Notes under the pieces: model-generated
What the model saw: the letters and a program-made list of their open reading frames with translations, nothing else
Told to the model about the DNA's origin: nothing
Database searches by the model: none
Assembly: GCA_016795105.1 (NCBI GenBank)
Contig: JAEUIH010000006.1
Location: forward strand, 124,001-188,000
Origin: Planctomyces sp.
GTDB taxonomy: Bacteria > Planctomycetota > Planctomycetia > Planctomycetales > Planctomycetaceae
Reading direction: 5' to 3'
DNA length: 64,000 nucleotides
Shown: one piece after another, positions 28,056 through 42,340 of the stretch
Numbering within the stretch: position 1 is the stretch's first letter
Layout of the letters: each line of letters opens with the position of its first letter
Position numbers and translations under genes: made by a program

Positions 28056-28080
28056 CCATCGTCAGCCGGGCTGACGATGG
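28056..28080. terminator. Hairpin between convergent genes
   Basis: CCATCGTCAGC (28056-28066) pairs perfectly with GCTGACGATGG (28070-28080) around a 3-nt loop. It covers the stop codon of the permease gene (28062-28064) and lies 25 bp after the stop of the small basic protein gene. No T run on either strand, so it may be a weak bidirectional terminator or an mRNA-end stabiliser. Confidence 0.55.
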
Positions 28081-29267
28081 CTTCTGAATGCACTGAATCG
28101 ATGGCTATATCCGAGCCACGTGATCCGAACCAGCAGGCCGACGCTAATCAGGTCGGCCAGCCAGCCGGGCAGGAGAGAGCCGTGTTCATGAGTATGCAAG
28201 TGGCCTGCCGACCGAAGGTCCGGAAGTATTGAGTCAACGGCAAGTCCGATAAGAAATGACATGCCCACAACGCCAAACAGATATCCAGCGAGTGCCGACT
28301 TCCCAAGTTCCCGGCGTACGACGGCCGCGCTGGAGAAATTTGACGCCGGACCTGCCAGCAAAAACACGAGTACAGTTCCGGGGCTCATTCCGGCAGCCAG
28401 CAATGAAGCCGCGATTGGTGTCGATGCTGTTGCACAAATATAGGTTGGCACGCTGACTGCCAGAACGGCAAGCATGACGATTGGTCCGCGTCCCCAGGAC
28501 GCAAGAGAATCCGCCGGAAAGAACTGTTGAATCACCGCGGCCGTCACTACGCCGACAAGTACCCAGCCAGCGATATCGGCCAGCATTCTGGAGAACGCAT
28601 AATTCAGACATTGATACCATCGAAGCTGATTGCTGCGCTCCGGCGATTCAGCCGGGTTTGATGCGCAGCAGGGACGAGGCTGACAACATGGAGCCATCGG
28701 TGACTCACTCGCCGGATGACCTGCAGGATTCTGACTCACCGGCAGAATTGGTATCGGCTGCATTCCCAGTTCAATGACCGGCAGCAGCAGGGATGGCTGT
28801 TTGTTCTGCAGGCTGGATTTTATTGTCGCGCGATTTGTGGACTGTTGTTCAAGCAGACCGGCAAGAACGCCAGCCACCGAAGCGCTGATCAGGGCGGCTG
28901 AAACTCTGAGGACTGTCATCCATGGACCGAGCAGAGCCCAGCTCATGGCGATGGAGTCGGCACCGTTTTCCGGAGTGGCGACGAGAAACGCGACAGTCGC
29001 GCTTGAGGATGCCCCGGACCTGTGCAGCTGAATTGCCGCTGGAAGTACACTACACGAACAAAGGGGAAGCGGGGTCCCTATGACTGCCGCCCTGAGTGCC
29101 GACATCAGGCCAGATTTTCCCAGCCATCGATGGACAAGCTGAGTGGGGAACCAGGCTTTCAACAGACCGGCTGCTATCAGCCCCAGGACAAGCCAGGGAG
29201 CCATTTCCCTCCAGATCATCCAGGCATTCTGAGAGACTGCCCGCACTGATTCCCCGAACTCACTCAC
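28062..29267 (-). CDS. SO_0444/YraQ-type permease (possible Cu/Zn efflux)
   Basis: A 401-residue membrane protein starting at a GTG with AGG upstream. The N-terminal half has GTPLPLCSCSVLPAAIQLHRSGAS and VATPENGADSIAMSW, the C-terminal half VSVPTYICATASTPIAASLLAAGMSPGTVLVFLLAGPASN; these are the paired motifs of the permease family to which the SO_0444 transporters belong. A Cys-rich cytoplasmic stretch near residues 190-205 (CCQPRPCCAS) and a His-rich GHLHTHEHG near 365 suggest metal binding. It follows thiol peroxidase by 38 bp on the same strand. Metal efflux is inferred from family and Cys/His patches. Confidence 0.82.
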   Translation of the reverse strand: MSEFGESVRAVSQNAWMIWREMAPWLVLGLIAAGLLKAWFPTQLVHRWLGKSGLMSALRAAVIGTPLPLCSCSVLPAAIQLHRSGASSSATVAFLVATPENGADSIAMSWALLGPWMTVLRVSAALISASVAGVLAGLLEQQSTNRATIKSSLQNKQPSLLLPVIELGMQPIPILPVSQNPAGHPASESPMAPCCQPRPCCASNPAESPERSNQLRWYQCLNYAFSRMLADIAGWVLVGVVTAAVIQQFFPADSLASWGRGPIVMLAVLAVSVPTYICATASTPIAASLLAAGMSPGTVLVFLLAGPASNFSSAAVVRRELGKSALAGYLFGVVGMSFLIGLAVDSILPDLRSAGHLHTHEHGSLLPGWLADLISVGLLVRITWLGYSHRFSAFRSHRQPG

Positions 29268-29305
29268 GTTCGCCTACCGATCTGCGTGTACTCTGAGATT
29301 CATGC

Positions 29306-29827
29306 TTATGCCTGCTTTGCGGCAGCGAGTACTGCATCGTAGTTTGGATGCTCTGCGATCTCGCTGACATATTCGACGTGGGAGATTTTTCCATTGGCAT
29401 TAACTACGAAGATTGCTCGTGCAAGGCAGCGATCGAGTGGGCCACCCTTAATCAAAACACCGTAGTCTTCTCCGAACTGAGTGCAGCGGTGAGCGCTCAG
29501 GGTCTTGACTTTGTCAACATTCTCTGCACCGCACCATCGTTTCTGGCCGAACGGCAAGTCCATGCTGACCACGAGGATTTCCACGCCTGGAAGTGTTGCA
29601 GCAGCATCGTTGAACTTCTTCGTTTCGGTATGGCAAACGGAGGTATCCAGTGATGGAATTGTGACAATGATTCGAGTCTTCCCACTGCTGGATGCGAGGG
29701 AAACATCTTCAAGCCCGGTATTCTGCAGGCTGAAATCAGGTGCAGTCGCGCCTGGTGTCAGCGCTGTTCCTGCAAGATCAACTGGATTACCCTTGAGTGT
29801 AACGGCGCCTTTACGAATGTTACTCAT
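29306..29827 (-). CDS. tpx: Thiol peroxidase (Tpx)
   Basis: A 173-residue atypical 2-Cys peroxiredoxin. The peroxidatic cysteine is in SLDTSVCHTETKKFN and the resolving one in LPFGQKRWCGAENV, as in E. coli Tpx. It reduces peroxides with thioredoxin. I chose ATG 29827 (MSNIRKGAVT) because the family starts there; the frame stays open far upstream but that part is non-conserved. It is divergent from moeA (216 bp apart) and precedes the metal-type permease, possibly as one stress-linked transcript. Confidence 0.95.
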   Translation of the reverse strand: MSNIRKGAVTLKGNPVDLAGTALTPGATAPDFSLQNTGLEDVSLASSSGKTRIIVTIPSLDTSVCHTETKKFNDAAATLPGVEILVVSMDLPFGQKRWCGAENVDKVKTLSAHRCTQFGEDYGVLIKGGPLDRCLARAIFVVNANGKISHVEYVSEIAEHPNYDAVLAAAKQA

Positions 29828-30043
29828 GCTCTGATTTCTCTCTTGTTTAGTGTTGTGGCGGAAGTCGTTGCGGGGACGTACATTGTCCATGAAGTGTGGC
29901 AGTATGAACTTCGTGAGCCGGTATGCAACCGGATCAGAACCGCAAATCGTGGAACAGTCTTCATTGATTCGAATAAGATGCTGCGAACGTGTAGAAGATC
30001 TTAAATCTGATTCGAACATCCGTTTTACGAATGTTGAGCCCAA

Positions 30044-31339
30044 ATGCTTACCGTTTCTCAGGCAATAAATCTGATTCTTTCTGAGACTCATGCCGGATTG
30101 AATGAGTCTGTTTCAGTGGGGGCGGCCCTGAATCGGGTACTCTCATCCCCCGTTTTGACTCCTCATGACTCGCCGCTGTTTGACAAATCGCTGATGGACG
30201 GTTTTGCCGTCAACTCCGCTTCGCTGTTGACGGCGCAGGTTTCGGATGGAACGATTTCCGGTGAGAGAACTCTCGGTGATTCAGTTTCGTTAAACGTCTG
30301 CGAAACTCTGACAGCTGGCACGCACTCCGAGAAGTGGCTGTCCGAAGGGCAGGCCGTGCGCGTGATGACGGGGACCGCGATTCCACCCGGTGCGGACTGT
30401 GTTGTTCCGTTTGAACAGGTTACGGTGTTTCCGATCGAGCGCGAAGTCGATCAGATCGATCGCGAAGTTGTTTCGATTCCGCGGCGGGCGATTTCTAAGG
30501 GAAACTGTGTCCTGAGAAGGGGACAGTCTGCCAGGAGCGGAGACGTGCTGCTGACTGCAGGAGTTCGCCTGTACGCTCAGCATCTGGCAGCGCTGGCGGA
30601 GTTTGGGATTCCTGAAATTCAGGCCCGTCGACTGCCTCGATGTGCGGTCCTTGCGACCGGCGATGAGCTCGTGGAGTATACTCAGAATCCCGGACCTGGG
30701 CGAATCCGAAATTCAAATGAGCCGATGCTGCTGGGGCAACTGCGTCAGAACTACGCAGAACCTTTGGGTCTGGGAATTGCCAGGGACGACCATGATGTTC
30801 TGCGTTCAGGAATTCAGCAGGGGCTGAAGTGTGACTTTCTGATCCTGACAGGCGGAGTCTCTGTCGGTATCCGCGACCTTGTTCCCGCTGAACTGAATGC
30901 TGCCGGAGTTCGAAAAGTTTTTCATGGCGTACACATGAAGCCTGGCAAGCCGTTGTGGTTTGGCGTCTATGAAAAGGGTGATCATCGATGTTGTGTGTTT
31001 GGACTGCCAGGAAATCCCGTAAGTGCGCTGGCGTGTTTTGAATTGTTCGTGCGACCTGCTTTGCGGAAGTTCAGCGGAATCTGCAATCCGGATCCACTCC
31101 CGATGAAAGCCATACTTATGGAACCCTATCAGGTTCGCGGAGATCGCCCCGTCTATCACCCGGTTAAAATCGAGGCTGGTGATCAGGGTTTGACGGTACG
31201 GCCATTGCGCTGGATAGGTTCGGCGGACCTGCGAGCAACTGTGGATGCAAACGGGATGGCACTGTTCGAGCCCTGCGGAAGTCCGATTGCGACGGGAACA
31301 TGCGTGTCTGTCTGGCTGTGGGCAGGATTGAACGAATGA
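30044..31339 (+). CDS. moeA: Molybdopterin molybdenumtransferase MoeA
   Basis: A 431-residue protein that inserts molybdate into adenylylated molybdopterin. Landmarks are SLMDGFAV near residue 50, GTAIPPGADCVVPFEQV, the domain III block ATGDELVEY followed by NSNEPML, and LTGGVSVGIRDLVP with PGNPVSALACFELF near the end. The four-domain length is normal. No other molybdenum cofactor gene is adjacent. It converges on the desaturase fusion gene with 10 bp between stop codons. Confidence 0.95.
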   Translation: MLTVSQAINLILSETHAGLNESVSVGAALNRVLSSPVLTPHDSPLFDKSLMDGFAVNSASLLTAQVSDGTISGERTLGDSVSLNVCETLTAGTHSEKWLSEGQAVRVMTGTAIPPGADCVVPFEQVTVFPIEREVDQIDREVVSIPRRAISKGNCVLRRGQSARSGDVLLTAGVRLYAQHLAALAEFGIPEIQARRLPRCAVLATGDELVEYTQNPGPGRIRNSNEPMLLGQLRQNYAEPLGLGIARDDHDVLRSGIQQGLKCDFLILTGGVSVGIRDLVPAELNAAGVRKVFHGVHMKPGKPLWFGVYEKGDHRCCVFGLPGNPVSALACFELFVRPALRKFSGICNPDPLPMKAILMEPYQVRGDRPVYHPVKIEAGDQGLTVRPLRWIGSADLRATVDANGMALFEPCGSPIATGTCVSVWLWAGLNE

Positions 31340-31349
31340 TGGGTGGACT

Positions 31350-33767
31350 TTAGCTGTGGTGATCGGTGGCCGTTGTTTGTGTCTGCGCGATTGATGCTCC
31401 GGATGCCGGGTTCTTCCAGAGATTCGGAAGAGTATCGATTGCAGCAGCGAGATAGCTGCCAAACAGACGCTGCTGCAGTTGTTTGTCCCGACTGACATGT
31501 TTTGTCATCAGGCCCGCAAGGTCTTCATGAGAAGCTTTTGGGTATCGATGGTGAGGACCGTGGGTTGCGATATCAAAGTTGAAGTATCTGCATATACGAG
31601 AAAACAGGTTCCCTCCTGCGATGGTGCGTGTACCCATGAGAGGATCATCACTGTTGAGCCCGAGATGCTCAATGAATTTTCTTGCGGTATTGAGAATTGG
31701 CGCCAGAATGAGGGGAAGCAACCACGTGAGTTGTCGCAACTGAAACGGAATTCCGTGGGTCAACATCCATGTGAACACGACAGCCGGCAATGCTGTCCAG
31801 AACAGGACGACGAGGATGTACTCAAATGTGATTGCGTTGCGTGTCTCCGGGCGGAGTCGAGGATCGCGAAGAAAATAGATTCTCCCGTAGATCAAAGGAG
31901 CCGTGATGATCCCGAAGAACAAATCGAGCCATACGAAGATTCGACGAAAGGAAAGAGAGCAGCGAGGGTCGGAGTAGGGCCAGAGTTCATAGTCATCAAC
32001 TGTATTCAGGTAGGCGTGATGGCGCCGATGAGTCTCCCGATAGGTTGTAAGCGGGATGGCGATCAGGGTTCCAATACATCTCCCAATGAATCGGTTCGCG
32101 AAACGGCTTCGAAAAAGTGTATCGTGCGCTGTTTCATGAAACATCCCCCCGACACAGAACCAACAGTAGGTCAGGCCCGCCGTCCAAAGTGTAAGTTCGG
32201 TCAGTGAAGCGGTTGATGTTGCCGCAATGAAGAACGGATAGAGCAACACAGCCAACGCCGGAAACAGCAGAAATCGGGCCCAGAATCGAAGTGAGCGGCG
32301 GTAAGCGACAGTCCTGGCCGGTTGTACCAGGTGCGAATGCGATGGTGCACTATCGCTTGCGGAGAAGTCTGGTTCGTGGCTGGTCTGCTGCTGATTCAGA
32401 TCTGCTGTGCGACAACACTGACGAAGTGAGTGAATAAACGAGTCCGCGAATTCGTCGCGTTCTGTCTCCGAAAATTCACTGGTTGCGAAGTTCATGTTGA
32501 TGTAAAGTCGTCCTGCGTACTTGCCGATTGAGGTGGCAATATGAGTTCCTCTGCGAACCGGGGCTGCGCCAAGGAGATATTCAAGTCGAATGTTCCCGGC
32601 AATGCAGCGACCCTCCTGCACGGGGAAAATGGCACCCAGCTGTCGGCGCACGTCTCCGACGTTTGCAAGGATCGTCGAACAGATATTCCAGGGGACTCGC
32701 GTGGCAAGTTTCATGAAACCGGGGATCAGGCAGCCAAGTTCCATCGTCAGCAGTACAAGTCCTGTATCACTGCTTCGAGCGACTTCGAGCGTTTCGGAGG
32801 TTACGTATTTGAGGAGGGACTCTTCATTGAGCAAATCCGCGCCTCGTCGAGTCAGCAGTATATAGGAGAGAATGTTTGCAGCCGGACTGTGATCATGTTC
32901 CGGAGTCCGCGTAGAAGCCGGTAATCCAATACGAATAATCGTGTCGTCGGAGTCAACACCGAGACGACTTTGCCATTCCCGAAGAGTGACGAACAAGCAG
33001 CAGGCAACGAGGTCGTTGAGAGAACATCCTCGTGCTGTGGCTTCTCCTCTAAGGCGAGCTGCGTCATGGTTGTCGAGTATGCGAGTGATGAATGGCAGTG
33101 ATGCCGACTCTGAGAGTGGTCGGGAATCGCTTGTCCTTCGGCCATACACAGCGGAGGGATGAATGCTCATGATGTCCCAAACACGCCACAGGAATCGGCG
33201 AAAGAGCTGAGGCGGTCGATGTCCCTCAAACCACTTCCTGCCTCGGAATGCGAGCACACTTCTGTCGAATTCACGGGGGGTAGGGCGACGGTCGTCGGAT
33301 TCTGCCGTGAACTGACCATAATGCGCGAGAACGTCTCCGATGAATTCCATCGCCCCGATTCCGTCGGTTGCCGCATGATGGAACTGAAAAATTAATCGAC
33401 TCTCTCCCGCAGAGCAACCGACCCAAACGTTCAGACCTGGGGAAGTCCTTAGGTCAATGTGCCGTTGATCCGGGCTCGGCAGAGGAGGCATCCCTTCATG
33501 AAACAGAATTTTCGGGGCGGCTGAGAGTGGAGTCCAGTACCACCGAAGCCATCGCCGCGCGACGATCGCGTTCAGCAATGGATGTCGATCGACAGACTTC
33601 TGAATCGCTGAAGTCAGTGCTTCCTGATTGAGATTTCCGCTGACTCCGATTTCAATGAAAAAGCACATCGGGAATTCGGGCCGATCGTCGGCCAGCATGA
33701 CTTCTTCAAACGCGGACAGCCTCAGTGGAAACAGTTCCTCTGGATCGGACCTGTCTGAGGTGCTCAT
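31350..33767 (-). CDS. Fusion of HHxxxDG acyltransferase and fatty-acid desaturase
   Basis: An 805-residue two-enzyme fusion. Residues 10-450 match the condensation/wax-ester-synthase-like acyltransferase fold, with the catalytic His130-His131-x-x-x-Asp135-Gly136 (FHHAATDG). Residues 455-485 are a linker. Residues 495-760 are a membrane fatty-acid desaturase with three histidine boxes: HETAH (544-548), HRRHH (580-584) and HGPHH (736-740), plus FIEHLG at 698. Helices at about 495-520, 525-545, 615-632 and 650-695 flank them. It likely desaturates or hydroxylates an acyl chain and transfers an acyl group; substrates are unknown. ATG 33767 lies 2 bp after the DUF962 stop in a five-gene operon. 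Confidence 0.88.
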   Translation of the reverse strand: MSTSDRSDPEELFPLRLSAFEEVMLADDRPEFPMCFFIEIGVSGNLNQEALTSAIQKSVDRHPLLNAIVARRWLRWYWTPLSAAPKILFHEGMPPLPSPDQRHIDLRTSPGLNVWVGCSAGESRLIFQFHHAATDGIGAMEFIGDVLAHYGQFTAESDDRRPTPREFDRSVLAFRGRKWFEGHRPPQLFRRFLWRVWDIMSIHPSAVYGRRTSDSRPLSESASLPFITRILDNHDAARLRGEATARGCSLNDLVACCLFVTLREWQSRLGVDSDDTIIRIGLPASTRTPEHDHSPAANILSYILLTRRGADLLNEESLLKYVTSETLEVARSSDTGLVLLTMELGCLIPGFMKLATRVPWNICSTILANVGDVRRQLGAIFPVQEGRCIAGNIRLEYLLGAAPVRRGTHIATSIGKYAGRLYINMNFATSEFSETERDEFADSFIHSLRQCCRTADLNQQQTSHEPDFSASDSAPSHSHLVQPARTVAYRRSLRFWARFLLFPALAVLLYPFFIAATSTASLTELTLWTAGLTYCWFCVGGMFHETAHDTLFRSRFANRFIGRCIGTLIAIPLTTYRETHRRHHAYLNTVDDYELWPYSDPRCSLSFRRIFVWLDLFFGIITAPLIYGRIYFLRDPRLRPETRNAITFEYILVVLFWTALPAVVFTWMLTHGIPFQLRQLTWLLPLILAPILNTARKFIEHLGLNSDDPLMGTRTIAGGNLFSRICRYFNFDIATHGPHHRYPKASHEDLAGLMTKHVSRDKQLQQRLFGSYLAAAIDTLPNLWKNPASGASIAQTQTTATDHHS

Positions 33768-33769
33768 CT

Positions 33770-34126
33770 TTATGCATCCTTTGAGGGACGCTGTGCGTCT
33801 TTTTGAACGTGCCCAGGATCACGACCGGAAATCATCAGCAGTGTCAGTTTGTAGTCCGCCAGCAATGACTGCCATGGATATCGAATTGAAAGCGGCCGGT
33901 TTCGCTCCACCAGTACATGTCCGAGCCATGCAAGACCATACCCTGCGAGCGGCATCAGAAGAAGCAACCACCATAACCTGATCCAGACGGCGACGATCAG
34001 AATGATCCACGAAGCAAGAGTTCCAGTCACATGCATCCAGCGATTGAGTTTCCTGTCATGTTCCTGAAGATAGAGAGTCCAGAAACGCTGAGTGGAGTCC
34101 GTTTGAGGGGGCTGCGTGACTGTCAC
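33770..34126 (-). CDS. DUF962/Mpo1-like membrane protein
   Basis: A 118-residue protein starting at GTG 34124-34126, with GGAGGG 6 bases upstream; GTGA overlaps the stop of the acyltransferase gene. The family pattern is clear: YLQEHDRKLNRWMHVTGT, two hydrophobic segments, then LAWLGHVLVERNRPLSIRYPW in part. Yeast Mpo1, the characterised member, is an iron-dependent dioxygenase acting on 2-hydroxy fatty acids in alpha-oxidation; the conserved His in EH, MHVTG and GH are candidate ligands. Its position between two acyltransferases, one fused to a desaturase, supports a fatty-acid substrate. Confidence 0.85.
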   Translation of the reverse strand: MTVTQPPQTDSTQRFWTLYLQEHDRKLNRWMHVTGTLASWIILIVAVWIRLWWLLLLMPLAGYGLAWLGHVLVERNRPLSIRYPWQSLLADYKLTLLMISGRDPGHVQKDAQRPSKDA

Positions 34127-35520
34127 AGTGAACCCTCCGTTTCGCTTGCCGTCCTTTCCAGTCGCTTCACGAAAGCCGTCATAAACCGGTGAGTCTGTTC
34201 GATGGAGAAATGGTGTGGATTCATACGCACATTGAGAATCAGTTGACCATTCATCAGCATAGTTGCCAGCACGACATGAGTGTGAGGGCGAATTGGCGGA
34301 ATACACCGAATTGATTCGAGTTCGACATTTCCGACGAGCACTTTTCCATCGCGAGATGGCAGTCTTGATGTGATGCTGTTCAATGCATTTCCAAGGTGAG
34401 AGAGTACCGCGGTACTCATGCACCTCTTCTTTGACTGCCTTAGGTACAGCCTAAGGATTGGCCCATATTGCTGCAGTGCCCTGATGGCCTGCAGAAAGAA
34501 CCAGCCAGCCTGATATTTATGAACAAGCTGCATCTCGTCTCTCAGGCTGCACAGCAGATCACCAGAGTGTTTCATGCGTGAGATGTTGCGAGTCAGAAAG
34601 ACATAGCCAACGACATTTGCAGCAGGCATTGCGTCGTCTGATGGTCCTCGGAGACTGTTTGGAGTCAGCACGCATATGGAATCTCGTGATCGAGGTGGCC
34701 CGACATCAGCATTCCATTCTGCGGCAACGAGCATCAAGTCCCGGACAAGCACATCGTTCAGAGTGGCTGAATGATGTTTGGCAACATTTCGGAGCGATCG
34801 AGTTGTTGTCCGGGAGAGCACCTGAGAGACAAGCCCGGTATCAAGATCCGAAGCATCCGATCCGGATTCTGAGCAGTGGGCAGCAAGTGGTACGATTCGC
34901 TGTTGAAGGTATTTGAGAGTGTACTTTGTAATGACCCCAAATCGCCGGAACACGGATCCAGACAGATTTGCAATTCTGCGGCCGGCTTCTGAATTTCGTT
35001 CACGCAGCAGTTGAGAATTCAGGGCTCGGAGTTGTGGGGCCGATTGTTCAGGATATTCATGTGCAAAGTGGCGGCTGTAGATTGCAGCGATATCTTCAAG
35101 GAACTGGCTGGCTCCGATTCCGTCACAGCAGGCATGATGGAACTGAAGTGTGATTTCTGTGACATCGTCCTGAAGTTCAGCCCAGCCTTCGATCCCGATG
35201 TTCGTCCTCAGGTCTCGTGGCTGCGACCATGGGCGTTTTTGTTTCCACTGATCGCTGTTCCATTCAATGGGCTGACGAAGTTCAGGCGCCCAGATCCAGT
35301 GAGGTATTGTTCCGATCAGTTCAATGCGGCAGCACAGCAAAGGGTGTCTGTTAAGTGCTTCATCAACCGCGTCTTCGATGAATTCGCGAATCAGTGTTCC
35401 TCGCAGACGAATCTGAAGAAAGAACGTCATCGGGTAGTCTTCGGATTCGTCTGACAGGATGTATTTTTCAAAAGCTGTCAGTGGAAGTGGGAAGAGACCG
35501 TCGGGCTTCTTCAGCGTCAT
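34123..35520 (-). CDS. Condensation/WES-like acyltransferase (HHxxxDG)
   Basis: A 465-residue protein homologous to the N-terminal half of the fusion at 31350-33767: both start with (L)FPLxLxAFE and carry the motif His128-His129-x-x-x-Asp133-Gly (FHHACCDG). The C-terminal half has SICVLTPNSLRGPSDD and LILNVRMNPHHFS. Such proteins transfer acyl or aminoacyl groups to alcohols or amines (PapA, wax ester synthases, condensation domains). I chose ATG 35520 because it overlaps the stop of the PTPS-like gene (ATGA). It was probably duplicated from, or gave rise to, the fusion partner two genes downstream. Confidence 0.85.
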   Translation of the reverse strand: MTLKKPDGLFPLPLTAFEKYILSDESEDYPMTFFLQIRLRGTLIREFIEDAVDEALNRHPLLCCRIELIGTIPHWIWAPELRQPIEWNSDQWKQKRPWSQPRDLRTNIGIEGWAELQDDVTEITLQFHHACCDGIGASQFLEDIAAIYSRHFAHEYPEQSAPQLRALNSQLLRERNSEAGRRIANLSGSVFRRFGVITKYTLKYLQQRIVPLAAHCSESGSDASDLDTGLVSQVLSRTTTRSLRNVAKHHSATLNDVLVRDLMLVAAEWNADVGPPRSRDSICVLTPNSLRGPSDDAMPAANVVGYVFLTRNISRMKHSGDLLCSLRDEMQLVHKYQAGWFFLQAIRALQQYGPILRLYLRQSKKRCMSTAVLSHLGNALNSITSRLPSRDGKVLVGNVELESIRCIPPIRPHTHVVLATMLMNGQLILNVRMNPHHFSIEQTHRFMTAFVKRLERTASETEGSL

Positions 35521-36047
35521 GAGTGTTCCTGCGTCGCGACTGGCGACGGGCACAGCCTGAAGTCAGCCCACTGCCCAAAGTTTTCTTCGACGCTGACACG
35601 CAGTTGATGAATGCTGCGACGCTGTTGATCGGTGATGCGTTCAAGAAAGCGAAGAGCAATCCATTGAGCGATGAGTTCCGCGGTCGTATTTGCGATTGGC
35701 AGAATTCTGCAATCCTCTGAAGGGAAGACCCAGCGGCGATCTGAGAACACCGCCGTCACTTCTCGCCCATCGGACGACGTGGAGACTCGAATCTGCGGAT
35801 GAAATTCGGGCAGCAGAACGCTGTGGTCAAGTTGAGCCACAATCAGCTGCAGGCCGTCGCGGAGGGCGATAAAGTCAAACACGTACTGGTTTTCGTCGAG
35901 AGGCCCGGAGACTTCTGCTTCGACTCGCCAGTTGTGGCCGTGCAGGCGTTCACAGATGTTTCCATTGAACGTGATGAAGTGAGCAGCACTGAAGACGAGA
36001 GAGTCTTTGAGAACTCGAACAGAATATTGCCCAACCGATGTTGTCAT
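35517..36047 (-). CDS. 6-pyruvoyl-tetrahydropterin synthase/QueD family protein
   Basis: A 176-residue protein with the zinc ligands His23 (SAAHF), His36 and His38 (RLHGHNW) and the catalytic-type Cys32 (NICERLHGH), plus VEENFGQWADF near the end. PTPS-family enzymes act on 7,8-dihydroneopterin triphosphate, giving pterin or deazapurine precursors. No queC/E/F gene is nearby, and the adjacent CitG-like gene and the distant Fae homolog make a pterin cofactor role more attractive than queuosine, but this is inference. Start and stop both overlap neighbours by 4 bp (ATGA). Confidence 0.87.
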   Translation of the reverse strand: MTTSVGQYSVRVLKDSLVFSAAHFITFNGNICERLHGHNWRVEAEVSGPLDENQYVFDFIALRDGLQLIVAQLDHSVLLPEFHPQIRVSTSSDGREVTAVFSDRRWVFPSEDCRILPIANTTAELIAQWIALRFLERITDQQRRSIHQLRVSVEENFGQWADFRLCPSPVATQEHS

Positions 36048-36922
36048 TCATAATCCCCTGAAACCCACCAGTCGCCATCCGGACTGATCCAGCCTTCACG
36101 CAGGCCGGAGAACAGTATAGCAGCGATCAGGTCTGCGGTTGTACCGGGATTTCGTCGATGTCCATCGGCTCTCAAAAACGAGTCGAACTCGGCATATCGA
36201 GCATGTGCGGCTGTTTCCATGGGCCATCCGCAGAGCAGTACTTCACCGGCAAGGCGCTTCACGTGACTGCTCATGTCTTCTCCGCATTTTCTGCGGATCA
36301 GGCTGTCTCCGTAACGAGACAGGAGTTTCAGGGCAACCCACGTGATCCGCTGTGGCTGGTTATCGATCAGTCGTCGAGCTTCACGGAGCAGGTCAGGTCC
36401 ATCGCACAGTACCTGTTCAAACCCATTGACATACTGTCGTGCAATCAGGTCAATGTCTGCGGAGAGTCTCATGCATTCGCGGAGGTTCATCGTGGGAGGT
36501 TGCCGGATATCCTGTGAGTCAGTCGTGCCAAGTCCGCCCGGGCATGCAATACGGATTGCCTCATAGACATCATGACTGTCGTCAATCGTCAGTTTGTCGA
36601 GAACTGAATGGATGCCTTCGGCAAGTGAATCCTGGGGGGGGACCGCCGCCAGAGGTGTGATCAGAAGTATGATTCCGAGGTTCGTGTTATGAGACACCTG
36701 CGATCGAGTTGCAGATACGGCGTTGCGAATTGATCGTCCCAGAGGTTGTTCGCATGCCGACGCCATGGGAGCCGAAGCGAGTGCCGCTGAGCGGAGGAAA
36801 TCGCTGACCCCTGCGTCTGCGAAATCGTGGCCCGGACAGACATTACCGGGTTTGGCGCACATGACCTCCATCCGGCAGGCAAGATCAATCCATTTTGTCA
36901 GCTGCATCTGCCAGAACGACAC
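36044..36922 (-). CDS. Triphosphoribosyl-dephospho-CoA synthase-like (CitG/MdcB family) protein
   Basis: A 292-residue helical protein of the CitG family. Landmarks are CRMEVMCAKPGNVCPGHDFAD in part, SHNTNLGIILLITPLA, and the late HRRNPGTTADLIAAILFSGL. CitG/MdcB make the prosthetic group precursor of citrate and malonate lyases; no lyase genes are here. A CitG-like protein is also a recognised member of tetrahydromethanopterin gene clusters in methylotrophs and planctomycetes, which fits the adjacent PTPS gene. The start is GTG 36922 with GGGGAG upstream; ATG 36907 is the alternative. First gene of the five-gene operon. Confidence 0.82.
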   Translation of the reverse strand: MSFWQMQLTKWIDLACRMEVMCAKPGNVCPGHDFADAGVSDFLRSAALASAPMASACEQPLGRSIRNAVSATRSQVSHNTNLGIILLITPLAAVPPQDSLAEGIHSVLDKLTIDDSHDVYEAIRIACPGGLGTTDSQDIRQPPTMNLRECMRLSADIDLIARQYVNGFEQVLCDGPDLLREARRLIDNQPQRITWVALKLLSRYGDSLIRRKCGEDMSSHVKRLAGEVLLCGWPMETAAHARYAEFDSFLRADGHRRNPGTTADLIAAILFSGLREGWISPDGDWWVSGDYE

Positions 36923-37022
36923 GTACGGTACTCCCCGAGTGAACTGCTGTTCGTTCGGAGAATAACCAGAAATCGTCAGACGCTCAAACTTCAGGTCCGC
37001 GAGAAATCGGGCTCAGGGGCAA

Positions 37023-38513
37023 CTATTTCTTCGTACCCTTCAGATCGATACTCCCAACCATGGTCTGCGACCCACCGCGGAGAATCTGATACGAGAGCAC
37101 TGTCAGCGACTTCAGCTGGCGCTCATCAAGAATGAAGCGAAGATTGTCCGGCCCGAGTGTCTCATAGCCATCGAGTCCGACGAGAACGTCGCCGCTTCGA
37201 ATCCCATAGCGGGACGCCAGGCTGTCATTGCGAACCTGAGCCACTTTCATACCACCCTTGTAACGTCCTCGCAGCAATGACTGTTCCTGCGTGTTGAGCG
37301 TGTCGAGTCGAATTCCCAGCAGTTCCCATGCTTTACCCAGTATCGGGTCTGCTGCTTCAGGCAGTTGAACTGAAGGAGATACATCGGCTACAGCTGACTC
37401 CCCGATGACCGGCAGTTCTCCATCGGCAACAACCGGCGGGGCACTGGAGCTTGAAACAGTTCGGGTGTCTGGCGAGGAGTTTCGTGGAGCCGCCACAATG
37501 CCATTCTGGCTGGCAGGACGCCCCACTCCGACCGTGTATTGGAGTGTTTGTTCCCGGCCATCGCGTTGAAGCACAACGTCGACGACTTTTCCAATCGGGA
37601 GGTCCAGGAGTGATCGTTCAAGGTCCGTTCCATCCTGGATCTGAACGCCACGGACACTGCGAATGACGTCGCCCGGCTGAAGGCCGCACTTTTCTGCTGC
37701 ACTTCCCGGACTGACTGCATCCACAAGCAGTTTCTTTTCGGTTGGAGTCTTCACGTCTGTGGTATTCAGACCATGAGGAATTCCGTTCAGACGTTCAACG
37801 CTCATCAGGCGAGCGATTGAGCGTCGAGCATCATCAATCGGGATCGCAAACCCGATCCGTTGAGCTCCTGCACGAATTGCAACGTTGATTCCGATGACTT
37901 CCCCATCCAGATTCAGGAGCGGGCCACCGCTGTTTCCTGGATTGATGCTCGCATCTGTCTGAATCAGGTTTTCATAGGACTGAGTTTCGTCGACTTCGAC
38001 ATCACGGTGCAGAGCACTGACAATTCCGGAGGTAATCGTGTGTTCATAACCGAACGCATTCCCCACAGCGAAAACCGTCTCTGCCAGCATCAGGTCTGAA
38101 GATGTACCCATGGGCATCACGGGAAGTGGTTCGGAGGCTTCAATTCGAATGATTGCGAGGTCCTGTTTTCGATCAAACGAGACCGGCCGGGCATCAAAGG
38201 TGGCTCCACTGTCAAGTGTCGCGATAATACGGTCAACATCCTGAATCACATGGTAGTTGGTAACAATGTAACCACGTTCATCAACGACAATTCCGGTTCC
38301 CATCCCGGTGATCTTGCGGGACTTCGATGAGAAGAACCGGGCTTCTTTATCGTCGGCTGCCGTCTTTTCGGTGTGAATATTCACAACCGACTTACGGCAC
38401 TGCTGAACAGCCTTGACGAGGGGCGTTTCTCGATTTTCAGCGGCCACAACTGAACTGATCCCGATCGCGAGAGCGACGAGAGACAGAGTGGCACGTTTCA
38501 AGGCTCCTGACAT
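37023..38513 (-). CDS. HtrA/DegP-type serine protease with two PDZ domains
   Basis: A 496-residue periplasmic protease. Signal peptide 1-25; protease domain with His88 (TNYHVIQ), Asp118 (KQDLAIIRI) and Ser195 (NPGNSGGP). The first PDZ domain covers about 255-330 (GSAAEKCGLQPGDVI) and the second 400-490 (GMKVAQVRNDSLASRYGIRSGDVL in part), with a Ser/Pro-rich linker between. Such enzymes degrade misfolded envelope proteins. It is one of three S1-type proteases in this window and the only one with two PDZ domains. An inverted repeat sits about 40 bp upstream of its start. Confidence 0.93.
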   Translation of the reverse strand: MSGALKRATLSLVALAIGISSVVAAENRETPLVKAVQQCRKSVVNIHTEKTAADDKEARFFSSKSRKITGMGTGIVVDERGYIVTNYHVIQDVDRIIATLDSGATFDARPVSFDRKQDLAIIRIEASEPLPVMPMGTSSDLMLAETVFAVGNAFGYEHTITSGIVSALHRDVEVDETQSYENLIQTDASINPGNSGGPLLNLDGEVIGINVAIRAGAQRIGFAIPIDDARRSIARLMSVERLNGIPHGLNTTDVKTPTEKKLLVDAVSPGSAAEKCGLQPGDVIRSVRGVQIQDGTDLERSLLDLPIGKVVDVVLQRDGREQTLQYTVGVGRPASQNGIVAAPRNSSPDTRTVSSSSAPPVVADGELPVIGESAVADVSPSVQLPEAADPILGKAWELLGIRLDTLNTQEQSLLRGRYKGGMKVAQVRNDSLASRYGIRSGDVLVGLDGYETLGPDNLRFILDERQLKSLTVLSYQILRGGSQTMVGSIDLKGTKK

Positions 38514-38923
38514 TCAGAACCTGCCCAATTCTTCACGGATGGTTGAGATCACCATTGCGCACAAAGCAATGGTTATGCTGACCCATCACCGTGAATCGAC
38601 TCCCCGAGTTTTTACGCTTGAAAGGCTGAATTGCTGAGAGTCAAACTCTGCCCGGTTTATCTCGCTGTGAAACTGGGGTGTCTTTGAAGGTGCGTATGTA
38701 TGAAGGTTCGCAGTTTTTCTGAAGTTTGAGTTTTGGTTCAACTTTTGAACGGAGACACCCAGGGGACGGCAAACACTGTGAAAGTCGCGGTTTTTTCGGT
38801 GTGGGCTTGAGAAAGTGGGGGTGAGTCGAGTGTTTTGCAGAGGTTTTTTGCCAGTTTTTTTGGTACTTTAGGGAGACTTTCGGGGTTAATCCGAGGAAAC
38901 CAGGTTCCCTCAGGAGTTGCAAC
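38514..38923. other. Gene-free divergent promoter region with an inverted repeat
   Basis: This 410-bp region lies between the HtrA gene and the TPR gene. At 38551-38573 there is an 8-bp perfect inverted repeat (ACCATTGC ... GCAATGGT, 7-bp spacer), within the expected leader or promoter of the protease gene. The right half is rich in T and G runs. I see no credible ORF or RNA gene. Confidence 0.5.
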
Positions 38924-39913
38924 ATGAGTGAGAGCAAGTCAGACGTTGACGTTCTTCGGCAGGTTCGATTGCTGCTGCGAAAAAAGCAATTTGATGAAGC
39001 GACAGTGCTTCTGCAGAAACTGCTGAACGAGTCCCCGAAAAACTGCGAATTTCGAGAGTTGCTGGGAACTGCCTGCTTCCTCAGAAAGGACTTCAAAGCC
39101 GCGAGGGACGAGTTTGAGCAAGTGACAAAACTCGAACCGCTGAGGGCATCCGGGTGGATTAACCTGGGGGCGATCGAGAACAAGCTGGGTGAGTATCGCA
39201 AAGCGGCGGATGCAATTCGTCGAGGGCTTACGAAGGATCGAAAGAACGCAGAGGCTTACTACAACCTTGGGATTGCCCAAAAGGGACTGAAACTCAACAC
39301 CATGGCCATCTCTGCCTACAAAGAGGCCGTGAAACTCAAGCCGGACATGGTGGATGCATGGGTCAACCTTGGACATCTCTATTTTGAAATGAAGAACTAC
39401 AGTCTGGCTCAGCAGTGCTGTCAGGCGATTCTGAAACTGGATCCGGAGTCTCGAAAGGCCAGAGCGTTGATGGCCCAGATTTCGGATTCGCATTCAAACG
39501 CTCGTCGAAGTGCTTCTCCGTTTGGTCGGCTTGTTGACGAACAGGCACTTGCCACAAAGCAAAAAGATGTGTCGCGTCGGATACTCGATCCAGCCGCACG
39601 AAATTCCGAACGCGATTTGATCAGAGAGATTACCAAACCCTGCCGAAAGGCTGGACGGGCGATGACGGAACTTCTTACCACACGTTTTCAGTCAGAAGTG
39701 CACCATCTGCAGGTTGTGGCACTACATGGAGATCCACGGATGGCGAATCCGGAGCTCTATGAACAGTTTGTGTCCAGCGTTGCGGCTTTGAGAGACTATC
39801 GCCGTCAGATTTTGCTGGGAATCGAGCAAATTCGAAATCATCTTGCAGATCCCGATGCCGCGATTCAGCGGACTCGAGAGGCGATTGATATTGATGGTGA
39901 TTCGGAGGACTGA
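38924..39913 (+). CDS. Tetratricopeptide-repeat protein
   Basis: A 329-residue cytoplasmic-looking protein with AGGAG 8 bases before the ATG. Residues 15-180 contain at least four TPRs (for example NCEFRELLGTACFLRKDFKAA in part, AEAYYNLGIAQKGLKLNTMA, VDAWVNLGHLYFEMKNYSLAQ in part). The C-terminal 150 residues are charged and helical. TPR units mediate protein-protein contacts; no partner can be deduced. It precedes a MoxR-type ATPase by 135 bp on the same strand. Confidence 0.87.
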   Translation: MSESKSDVDVLRQVRLLLRKKQFDEATVLLQKLLNESPKNCEFRELLGTACFLRKDFKAARDEFEQVTKLEPLRASGWINLGAIENKLGEYRKAADAIRRGLTKDRKNAEAYYNLGIAQKGLKLNTMAISAYKEAVKLKPDMVDAWVNLGHLYFEMKNYSLAQQCCQAILKLDPESRKARALMAQISDSHSNARRSASPFGRLVDEQALATKQKDVSRRILDPAARNSERDLIREITKPCRKAGRAMTELLTTRFQSEVHHLQVVALHGDPRMANPELYEQFVSSVAALRDYRRQILLGIEQIRNHLADPDAAIQRTREAIDIDGDSED

Positions 39914-40048
39914 TTCGGAGGACGAAGTCAGGCAGGTGCAAGCTGGTGTCATCGGAGCTGTGAGAGTGGCGAGAAGGCAGCCGCTCGCGTATCATTGATC
40001 TGCGAGGTTTCGTTTCGCTGAACTCAAAGAGAAAATCGATCGTACGAT

Positions 40049-41062
40049 ATGAACAGCACCCATCAGGTGGAGGGAGTGACGCTTCGTCTGGCGTCTCCGG
40101 ATATCAGTAAAGGCGAGTGGATTGGTCAGGGGGAAGTTCTGAAGCAACTGATGGCCTGCTGGCTTGTCGTTGATGCTCGCGATTTGCCGTTGACGCCGCG
40201 ATTGTTGGGAACTCCCGGAATTGGCAAGACAACACTGGCAATCTCCGGTGCTCGGCGGCGAGGCCAGGAGCTTTATATCTATCAGTGTACCGCGGATACT
40301 CGACCGGAAGACCTGCTTGTCACCCCGGTGCTCGCAGAGAGCGGCCGGATCGCGTATCACGCTTCGCCCCTCGTGACTGCAATGATTCGAGGTGGCATTT
40401 GTATCCTGGACGAAGGCAACCGCATGAACGAGAAGTCGTGGGCGAGTCTTGCCCCGCTTCTCGACCAACGTCGTTATGTGGAATCGATTGTGGCCGGGAT
40501 TACAATTCACGCGAGCCCTGACTTTCGATGTGCGGTCACGATGAACGACGATGAATCTACGTTCGAAATTCCGGACTATATTCTCAGTCGACTTCAGCCA
40601 ACGCTGACCCTTGGACATCCATCTCGGGAAGATGAACTCTCGATCCTGAAGTACCATCTTCCATTTGCTGACGATCAGATGCTGAACCTGACTGTATCTT
40701 TTCTTCAGGAAGCTCATTCGCTCAATCTGGATTTCTCAACCCGCGATGGCATTAATGTTCTGCGTTACGCGTTAAAGCGAATTGCGCAGGATCCGGATCA
40801 TCCGATTTCCCGGGATGATGTATGGAGGGAAGCCATTGAACGCTGTCTGGGGGAAGATGCAGCCGACTTGAAGACGCTTGCTGATAAACGAAGTCAGTCG
40901 CTTGGCGGAAACCAGGTTCCCATGGGACTTGGTGACTTTTTCTTTTCACCCGGCGACCCCCTGCACCCGGACGCTGATGACGATGACCTCGACGAATTTG
41001 AGGAGGAAGACTTCGATGACGATGACGACGCTGATGAAGATGATGACCGGAGTCCATTTTGA
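40049..41062 (+). CDS. MoxR-type AAA+ ATPase with polyacidic tail
   Basis: A 337-residue AAA+ ATPase. Walker A is GTPGIGKTT (about residues 55-63), Walker [11 protein letters not shown], followed by sensor-1 region VTMNDDES and the DYILSRLQP arginine-finger segment. MoxR-type ATPases remodel proteins or help insert metal cofactors, usually with a von Willebrand factor A partner. The last 30 residues are almost only Asp and Glu. No VWA-domain gene is adjacent; the DUF58 gene at 57048, a family that often partners MoxR, is 16 kb away. Confidence 0.88.
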
Positions 41063-41224
41063 GCTTTGATTTGCGAGAGTGAACGGCAGAAACTGCGGGT
41101 TGAGATTTTCCTGTGGAGTGGCTGGGGGGCACTGAGCGGCGAATTTGTTGACAAAGCCCTGTCTGACGGACTGTCAGATCATCTATGATTTGAGCTCTGT
41201 GGGAGTTGTTTTGGAGACAGATCA

Positions 41225-42340
41225 ATGTGCGGGCGAAACTGCATCTGCAAAAAACTGAGTTCCCCCTGCGTAATCGCAGTTTTGGGTTTTGTACTTCTGA
41301 CGGACATCAGCATGTCTGGTCTGCGAGCACAGGAGCCCATGAACCTGAAGCCACCGCGTGCCTACAATCAGGAAGGCCTGACTCCTGATGAAGCGGCCGC
41401 CGTTTATGTCTATGAATCCAATAATCGCAGTGTGGCGAACATCGCGACTCGCATTGGAAACCCGCGGGTTATGTTTCTGGAGAACCCGACTGAAGATGCG
41501 GGCTCAGGATTTGTCCTGGACAGCGAAGGCCACATCCTGACCAACTTCCATGTCATCGAGAATGCTCAGCGAATTCAGGTGACACTCTTCAGTGGTGAGT
41601 CATATGAAGCTGACCCTGTGGGAGTTGATCCGATCAATGATATGGCCGTGATTCGCATCAAGGCGCCTCCCGAACTTCTCTTTCCTGTACGACTCGGTGA
41701 TTCCGCCGGTTTGCGAGTGGGGATGAAGGTCTTTGCAATTGGCAATCCGTTTGGGCTGGAGCGAACGATGACGACCGGAATTATTTCCAGTCTGAATCGA
41801 AGTCTTCCGGTGACAAAGGCTCGCTCGATTAAATCTGTTATTCAGATTGACGCGGCCATCAATCCCGGGAACTCAGGAGGGCCACTGCTGAATTCTCACG
41901 GTGAACTCATCGGGATGAATACTGCAATCGCAAGTCGTACCGGACAGAACTCAGGAATCGGTTTTGCAATTCCAGTGAATCTAATTCGGCGAGTGGTTCC
42001 GGAGTTGATCGAACATGGTCGCGTGATTCGTCCGGACAGCGGCATTCTGGAAGTATTGCGAACGGAAGAGGGGCTGAGAATTCTGCGACTGGACCCGGAT
42101 GGTGCTGCCACGAAAGCAGGGTTGAGAGGCCCGGAGCTCAGGAGAACGAAACGCGGACTGCTGACATTTGAAGTTGAAGACCGAAATTCAGCGGACCTGA
42201 TTGTGGGGGTTAATGGAAAGAAGACACTGCAGGTTGACGAGTTTCTTTCGGAAGTTGAGAGCCATCGTCCCGGAGAACAGATCACAGTTGAAGTGATTCG
42301 CGGCGGGAAGCCGGTGTCTGTTCCCATGAAACTGCAGTGA
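41225..42340 (+). CDS. HtrA-like S1C serine protease with one PDZ domain
   Basis: A 371-residue secreted protease with GGAG 8 bases before ATG 41225. Signal peptide to about residue 35 (LRAQ), then triad His109 (TNFHVIE), Asp139 (NDMAVIRI) and Ser217 (NPGNSGGP). A single PDZ domain follows (about 270-371), with an internal charged insert (RGPELRRTKRGLLTFEVEDRN in part) between the usual GAATKAGL and DLIVGVNGKK blocks. The N-terminus has four Cys (CGRNCICKKLSSPC) before the hydrophobic core, unusual for a signal peptide. A hairpin follows the stop. Confidence 0.92.
   Translation: MCGRNCICKKLSSPCVIAVLGFVLLTDISMSGLRAQEPMNLKPPRAYNQEGLTPDEAAAVYVYESNNRSVANIATRIGNPRVMFLENPTEDAGSGFVLDSEGHILTNFHVIENAQRIQVTLFSGESYEADPVGVDPINDMAVIRIKAPPELLFPVRLGDSAGLRVGMKVFAIGNPFGLERTMTTGIISSLNRSLPVTKARSIKSVIQIDAAINPGNSGGPLLNSHGELIGMNTAIASRTGQNSGIGFAIPVNLIRRVVPELIEHGRVIRPDSGILEVLRTEEGLRILRLDPDGAATKAGLRGPELRRTKRGLLTFEVEDRNSADLIVGVNGKKTLQVDEFLSEVESHRPGEQITVEVIRGGKPVSVPMKLQ

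Follow-up and report, generated by a model that had tools for sequence, protein, structure and literature searches.

The stretch analysed here (the window, 64,000 nucleotides: positions 124,001 to 188,000 of contig JAEUIH010000006.1, Planctomyces sp. assembly GCA_016795105.1) carries, at positions 31350-36922, a tightly packed locus of five minus-strand genes for a CitG-like protein, a PTPS-family protein, an acyltransferase (here AT1), an Mpo1-like (DUF962) protein and a fused acyltransferase::desaturase. As far as the searched genomes show, the locus is a lineage-specific join of a tetrahydromethanopterin (H4MPT) gene pair, citG and ptps, with a lipid module. Even a five-gene overlap as striking as this one can arise where two unrelated modules meet; the CitG-like/PTPS pair is what deserves following.

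Gene organization

Inspection of the sequence confirmed that the five same-strand open reading frames (ORFs) of the original prediction are open at the coordinates it gave (Table 1), and its five-gene overlapping operon holds to the base: the 4-bp overlaps ATGA (36044-36047), ATGA (35517-35520) and GTGA (34123-34126) are exact, and a 2-bp gap (33768-33769) separates the Mpo1-like gene from the acyltransferase::desaturase gene. Its family names were right as well, as judged by Pfam, with AT1 under the cut-off. From the sequence, the start of AT1 is best placed at the ATG at 35520, which would give 465 residues and the 4-bp overlap.

Table 1. Genes of the locus and the adjoining upstream gene
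Gene product	Position	Strand	Basis
CitG-like protein, 292 aa, GTG start, H4MPT-island type, first gene of the operon	36044..36922	-	Pfam CitG
PTPS-family protein, 176 aa, CERLHGHN	35517..36047	-	Pfam PTPS
AT1, condensation-type acyltransferase, 465 aa, HHACCDG	34123..35520	-	sub-cut-off Pfam, motif
Mpo1-like (DUF962) protein, 118 aa, GTG start at 34126	33770..34126	-	Pfam Mpo1-like
Acyltransferase::desaturase fusion; acyltransferase ~1-460 (HHAATDG), membrane diiron desaturase ~485-805	31350..33767	-	Pfam, motifs, fold
HtrA/DegP-like serine protease, upstream, same strand, 100 bp gap, outside the overlap chain	37023..38513	-	

Tight junctions (-4 to +2) are common in this DNA. A mechanical gene call over the whole window found them at 7 of 27 same-strand neighbours, two of these in the locus itself; it missed both junctions flanking the Mpo1-like gene, where a longer ORF was chosen. 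The packing therefore argues for one transcript and is weak evidence for one pathway. Co-translation, which had been called very likely, is plausible. The lipid genes have a GC content of 0.51-0.53, slightly under that of citG and ptps (0.54-0.56).

Gene neighbourhoods in relatives

Among 150 genomes of the order (our own included; all entries listed belong to one family), matches were found for CitG in 140, PTPS in 145, the Mpo1-like protein in 109 and the fused acyltransferase::desaturase in 101. The surroundings of CitG, up to 8 kb per side, were taken from 58 other genomes, which cover 52 of the 53 matching genera; a partial match in G101 was omitted, and contig ends hold five of these stretches to under 10 kb. 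At a tblastn threshold of 1e-4, none of these 58 loci contains a match to the acyltransferase, the Mpo1-like protein or the desaturase. PTPS is present in 26 of them and is never more than 265 bp away from CitG. A scan of named genomes yielded 560 confirmed stretches, of which the best 80 (up to 6 kb per side, all from planctomycetes, some records being common to the 58-locus set) were examined, and the lipid genes are absent from all of these best 80. They contain PTPS at 39 loci (once 4 kb off), an MptN/MyfB(Orf5)-like gene at 31 and mch at 24.

The genus is represented by four genomes, and AT1 occurs only in our own; the other three, one of them 66% complete, have only 30-31% homologues. 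In the congener G054 (locus L054) the order is htrA-citG-ptps, the next gene lies on the opposite strand and the lipid genes are not there. The stretch from the congener G112 includes citG but no ptps. The order htrA-citG-ptps is likewise found in loci of Fuerstiella sp. metagenome-assembled genomes (L188, L216), a hint at the genus to which the window belongs. The copies of the lipid module located in relatives have other neighbours. In no relative examined do the two halves lie together, which leaves a joint function unsupported; this separation is the outcome that the original prediction itself had named as weakening the functional link.

Association of the CitG-like/PTPS pair with H4MPT genes

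We searched 244 planctomycete genomes, each at least 90% complete, for CitG, Mch and PTPS. CitG exceeds its cut-off in 46 and Mch in 46; both occur in 45, CitG alone in one (G275), Mch alone in one (G332) and neither in 197 (Fisher p = 7e-47, related genomes not being independent). These counts omit three CitG matches below cut-off (G180, G208, G268), which span only 98 positions of the profile. The Mch of G332 is divergent (242 bits).

CitG and mch share a strand and are no more than 2 kb apart in 7 of the 45 genomes that have both. The deep-branching relative at locus L136 has the order mch, RimK-family ligase, CitG-like, PTPS, SDR, dihydropteroate-synthase (DHPS)-like and PabB; the best model for the ligase is MptN (220 bits, under the cut-off of 350), and the DHPS-like protein matches DUF6513 and Pterin_bind over cut-off and TIGR00284 at 163.6 bits, under cut-off. 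Singulisphaera (L171) and Aquisphaera (L204) have mch-orf5-citG-ptps, followed by MfnD-like and hydantoinase-like genes. A natural CitG::PTPS fusion of 473 aa, with both Pfam domains over cut-off, is encoded in the deep-branching planctomycete G241 (L137:8517-9938, plus strand), where it sits inside an H4MPT gene cluster. Our own genome also has an Mch match. On the evidence of relatives, the CitG-like/PTPS pair is a piece of the H4MPT/methanofuran island. The near-perfect co-occurrence with Mch and the CitG::PTPS fusion point to a specific, testable role for an H4MPT-island protein from a family named after citrate lyase.

Planctomycetes are known to carry H4MPT/methanofuran genes, according to the excerpted text of PMC5020050. 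In methylotrophs the corresponding island is mch-orf5-orf7-fae, as described in Methylosinus trichosporium (PMC3615186, excerpt), and MyfB (Orf5) is a glutamate ligase for methylofuran (PMC8141765, excerpt). The planctomycete clusters resemble that island in having mch, an MptN/MyfB(Orf5)-like ligase and a third gene, which in planctomycetes is CitG-like; the pair in the window differs in lying apart from mch and directly next to lipid genes. Orf7 is presumably CitG-like too, and for methylotrophs and archaea the link rests on control genomes and papers. Among the papers searched, none joins CitG with tetrahydromethanopterin or triphosphoribosyl with methanopterin, and neither COG1767 nor triphosphoribosyl-dephospho-CoA occurs in the 25 of 2,493 papers listed by a further search.

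The PTPS-family protein

The ptps product scores 78.9 bits against Pfam PTPS, over cut-off, and its best relative in the PDB is the Plasmodium PTPS 1y13 (E 2.4e-20). Its motif CERLHGHN fits CExxHGH and includes the ExxHGH by which PTPS-III is recognised; CExLHGHN is present in 19 of 20 homologues scanned. The excerpted text of PMC5041015 describes CExxHGH for PTPS-I/III hybrids, the motif containing the QueD cysteine, and assigns PTPS-III members of some archaea a part in H4MPT biosynthesis. In the Plasmodium enzyme, which makes 6-hydroxymethyl-7,8-dihydropterin, the FRETLH motif contains Glu (PMC2229834, excerpt). FolB has no match in our own genome in a search that matches 10 of 14 control genomes, a result that shows a vacancy and not its replacement by PTPS. 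Because of the CExxHGH motif and the genome without FolB, the PTPS of the window probably makes 6-hydroxymethyl-7,8-dihydropterin, as a putative PTPS-III or PTPS-I/III hybrid. It resembles these groups of COG0720 in the motif, in the nearest PDB structure and in the lack of a FolB match, and differs from them in lying beside a CitG-like H4MPT-island protein, to which it is fused in L137.

The alternative that this protein acts as QueD in queuosine biosynthesis only, its place beside CitG being incidental, appeals to the QueD cysteine in its motif and to a score of 66.5 bits with the QueD model. However, that score is under the NCBIfam equivalog cut-off of 89.25, and the missing FolB and the fusion with CitG point elsewhere. 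PTPS proteins of at least 126 bits, moreover, occur in 40 of the 244 genomes, every one of them Mch-positive, and in 35 cases no more than 1 kb from CitG, whereas weaker relatives (at most 110 bits) occur in 49 further genomes, none with Mch. We regard a role restricted to queuosine as improbable.

The lipid module

AT1 is assigned to the condensation-type acyltransferases by its motif and by Pfam scores that are both under cut-off (Condensation 23.4 versus 30.6 bits, WS_DGAT 20 versus 23.6). Its NCBIfam scores are also below cut-off (TIGR02946 27.2 versus 309.95, PapA5 21.5 versus 396), and the match to the PapA5 structure 1q9j is weak (E 0.019). The fold evidence for Condensation comes from the fused protein, whose model has a mean predicted local distance difference test (pLDDT) score of 71.3 and gives Foldseek/VIA fold matches for both halves, residues 275-408 being weak. 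The desaturase half scores 99.6 bits against FA_desaturase (cut-off 29.7). HHxxxDG is intact in all 17 acyltransferase rows aligned, and the histidine boxes HExxH, HxxHH, [E/D]H and HGxHH are present in the window protein and in 16 of 16 desaturase homologues aligned. This alignment mixed separate acyltransferase and desaturase proteins, and in its desaturase part acyltransferase rows are misplaced; it can be relied on only for the N-terminal acyltransferase section and for the desaturase half.

Among the loci examined, the acyltransferase::desaturase fusion is seen only in the window. In all 17 loci of relatives where an acyltransferase gene adjoins a desaturase gene, a stop codon lies between the two; in L075, L076, L077 and L091 the genes share a frame and one in-frame stop alone divides them, so the loss of a single stop could yield the fusion. 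Further breaks interrupt the ORFs of L076, L084 and L085, which makes these the weaker rows. Open-frame lengths had suggested fused frames in G018, G024, G044 and G097; in the two of these that were checked, L084 (G024) and L091 (G018), stop codons intervene. At L074:4663-7967 (plus strand), an RVT_1 reverse-transcriptase gene follows a gene for a 562-aa protein with no Pfam match, directly upstream of the acyltransferase-desaturase pair.

The Mpo1-like protein scores 96.4 bits against Pfam (cut-off 24), covering profile positions 3-94 of 95. Matches of at least 83 bits occur at 19 places in the 150 genomes; an acyltransferase gene adjoins 10 of them, our own included, and a desaturase gene is also there at 9. 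At the other 9 places no acyltransferase appears among the matches listed. In L081, L082 and L083 a 4-bp overlap links the Mpo1-like gene to the acyltransferase gene. A second Mpo1/DUF962-like family, matching profile positions ~4-69 with lower scores (e.g. G000:C221:14760-14957), makes up most of the order-wide matches. With the Mpo1 alpha-oxidation dioxygenases the window protein shares the Pfam match over cut-off; unlike them it is bacterial and adjoins acyltransferase and desaturase genes.

Proteins like AT1 (46-48% identity) are encoded upstream of the acyltransferase-desaturase pair in L080, L091 and L132, where the order is AT1-like, acyltransferase, desaturase and MMPL-family gene. The Pfam scan for MMPL covered the genes of L091 and L132, with which the L080 gene clusters. 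No MMPL gene is present among the 11 window genes scanned (28062-42340, the ORF at 29306-30091 lying outside the scan). PapA-type acyltransferases work with MmpL exporters in the making of mycobacterial complex lipids, and the present systems resemble them in the HHxxxDG enzymes and in the gene order of three relatives; they differ in that the scanned window genes include no MMPL gene and that PapA5 is only marginally similar in sequence. The lipid half recurs as an independent, uncharacterised module, sometimes with an MMPL transporter gene. Our best guess from the sequences is that its product is a lipid, acylated and unsaturated, that is secreted or goes into the envelope, the Mpo1-like enzyme trimming 2-hydroxy acids. 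A literature search found no work on an Mpo1/DUF962-desaturase or a planctomycete acyltransferase-desaturase-MMPL module among the titles and abstract starts listed.

A probable composite operon

We consider it very probable that the locus is a composite operon, in which a detached piece of the H4MPT island has been joined to an independent lipid module, and that the two do not form one pathway. In the first half, PTPS would most likely supply 6-hydroxymethyl-7,8-dihydropterin in the place of FolB, and the CitG-like protein would most likely perform a nucleotide-dependent step in the making of the non-pterin side chain of H4MPT. In the second half, the two acyltransferases would move acyl chains, which the diiron enzyme would desaturate or hydroxylate, and the Mpo1-like enzyme may shorten 2-hydroxy acids. 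The lipid module would have come to lie directly downstream of ptps in this lineage and is probably co-transcribed with it. Of the two alternatives offered originally, a new acyl-modified compound does not fit, whereas the hitching of C1-cofactor genes to lipid synthesis does.

Several observations weigh against this interpretation. Both halves are packed here like one transcription unit, and a recent functional link between them in this lineage is still conceivable. Our own mch and its MptN/MyfB-like partner are on another contig (C343, L144), so that the island link of the window copy rests on relatives. PTPS stands beside CitG in little under half of the 58 relatives' loci (the 26 noted above), 6 of the 46 Mch genomes lack a high-scoring PTPS, and CitG without Mch (G275) and Mch without CitG (G332) both occur. 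The beta-RFAP synthase match of our own genome, which is divergent, scores 76.4 bits, below its cut-off of 113.5. Finally, Haloferax matches CitG, Mch and beta-RFAP synthase, yet according to a review haloarchaea use tetrahydrofolate and not methanopterin, and the review doubts the RFAP activity of the Haloferax homologue (PMC8305020, excerpt); the gene set alone is therefore no proof of H4MPT.

Were all five enzymes instead to build one new acyl-modified pterin or CoA-type compound, the tight junctions at all four gene borders would be readily understood. Such junctions are frequent in the window, however, the halves are apart at every CitG locus of both sets, and each half has recurring partners of its own: mch, MptN/MyfB-like, DHPS-like and PabB genes for the one, desaturase and MMPL genes for the other. 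A single pathway is accordingly not supported, and we think it very unlikely.

The CitG-like protein and a candidate alpha-ribosyl step

The CitG-like protein matches Pfam CitG with 194.8 bits (cut-off 27). The only structure that its AlphaFold2 model (pLDDT 93.6) clearly matches in fold is the Archaeoglobus fulgidus protein 3h9p (Z 23.3, root-mean-square deviation 2.5, 219 aligned). It resembles the CitG/MdcB triphosphoribosyl-dephospho-CoA synthases in belonging to the same Pfam family and in that 3h9p was deposited under that name; it is unlike them in its H4MPT context and in falling far under the NCBIfam equivalog cut-offs (18.0 versus 282.35 and 13.9 versus 280 bits), and TIGR03125 gives no report at E 0.1. 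That it is nevertheless a true CitG/MdcB, making triphosphoribosyl-dephospho-CoA for a citrate-lyase-type acyl carrier, is hardly credible: the Pfam match would allow it, but the equivalog scores, the tracking of Mch (45 of 46 genomes), the clustering with H4MPT genes and the fusion to PTPS in G241 all speak against it. A K-x-G-N-V segment is invariant in the CitG-like clade; in true CitG it is presumably different. The model (m76f6eddb634e) also gave repeated weak matches to the ADP-ribosyl hydrolases ARH3/DRAG (Z ~2.4-3.5), which likewise act on ribosyl bonds; as functional evidence these were discounted, the Z scores being weak for an all-helical fold.

CitG makes an alpha-O-riboside from ATP, adenine leaving, and H4MPT holds an alpha-ribosyl-ribitol bond. 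From this chemistry and the co-occurrence with beta-RFAP synthase comes the idea, tentative and in our judgement doubtful, that the CitG-like protein might be the missing alpha-ribosyltransferase of H4MPT biosynthesis. Like CitG acting on dephospho-CoA, it would draw the ribosyl group from a nucleoside triphosphate. The base would leave, and by inversion the beta-N-riboside would become an alpha-O-riboside, formed here at the ribitol hydroxyl of the aminophenyl-ribitol precursor. The CitG::PTPS fusion would then tie the pterin branch to the side-chain branch. In the 14 control genomes CitG matches Escherichia coli and four archaea, and the same four archaea are exactly those that match beta-RFAP synthase; Mch matches three of the four, Sulfolobus being the exception. 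Haloferax is among the four and yet is assigned tetrahydrofolate (PMC8305020, excerpt), which led us to lower an already small estimate slightly further.

An account from 2011 estimated that seven proteins of H4MPT biosynthesis were still unknown (PMC3087415, excerpt). No enzyme assigned to the alpha-ribosyl step was found in the literature excerpts examined, and the step is not treated in the excerpted parts of PMC6787355 or PMC6193120. Should the ribosyl reading be true, it would fill a gap in how a carrier central to methanogenesis and methylotrophy is made.

Neighbouring genes

Two related HtrA/DegP-like trypsin-PDZ proteases are encoded near each other, the one upstream of citG (Table 1) and a second at 41225-42340 on the plus strand; the former adjoins citG in a congener as well. 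On the other side of the locus, positions 28062-29267 (minus strand) encode a Cu/Zn efflux transporter of the SO_0444 family (NF033936, 371 bits versus a cut-off of 300).

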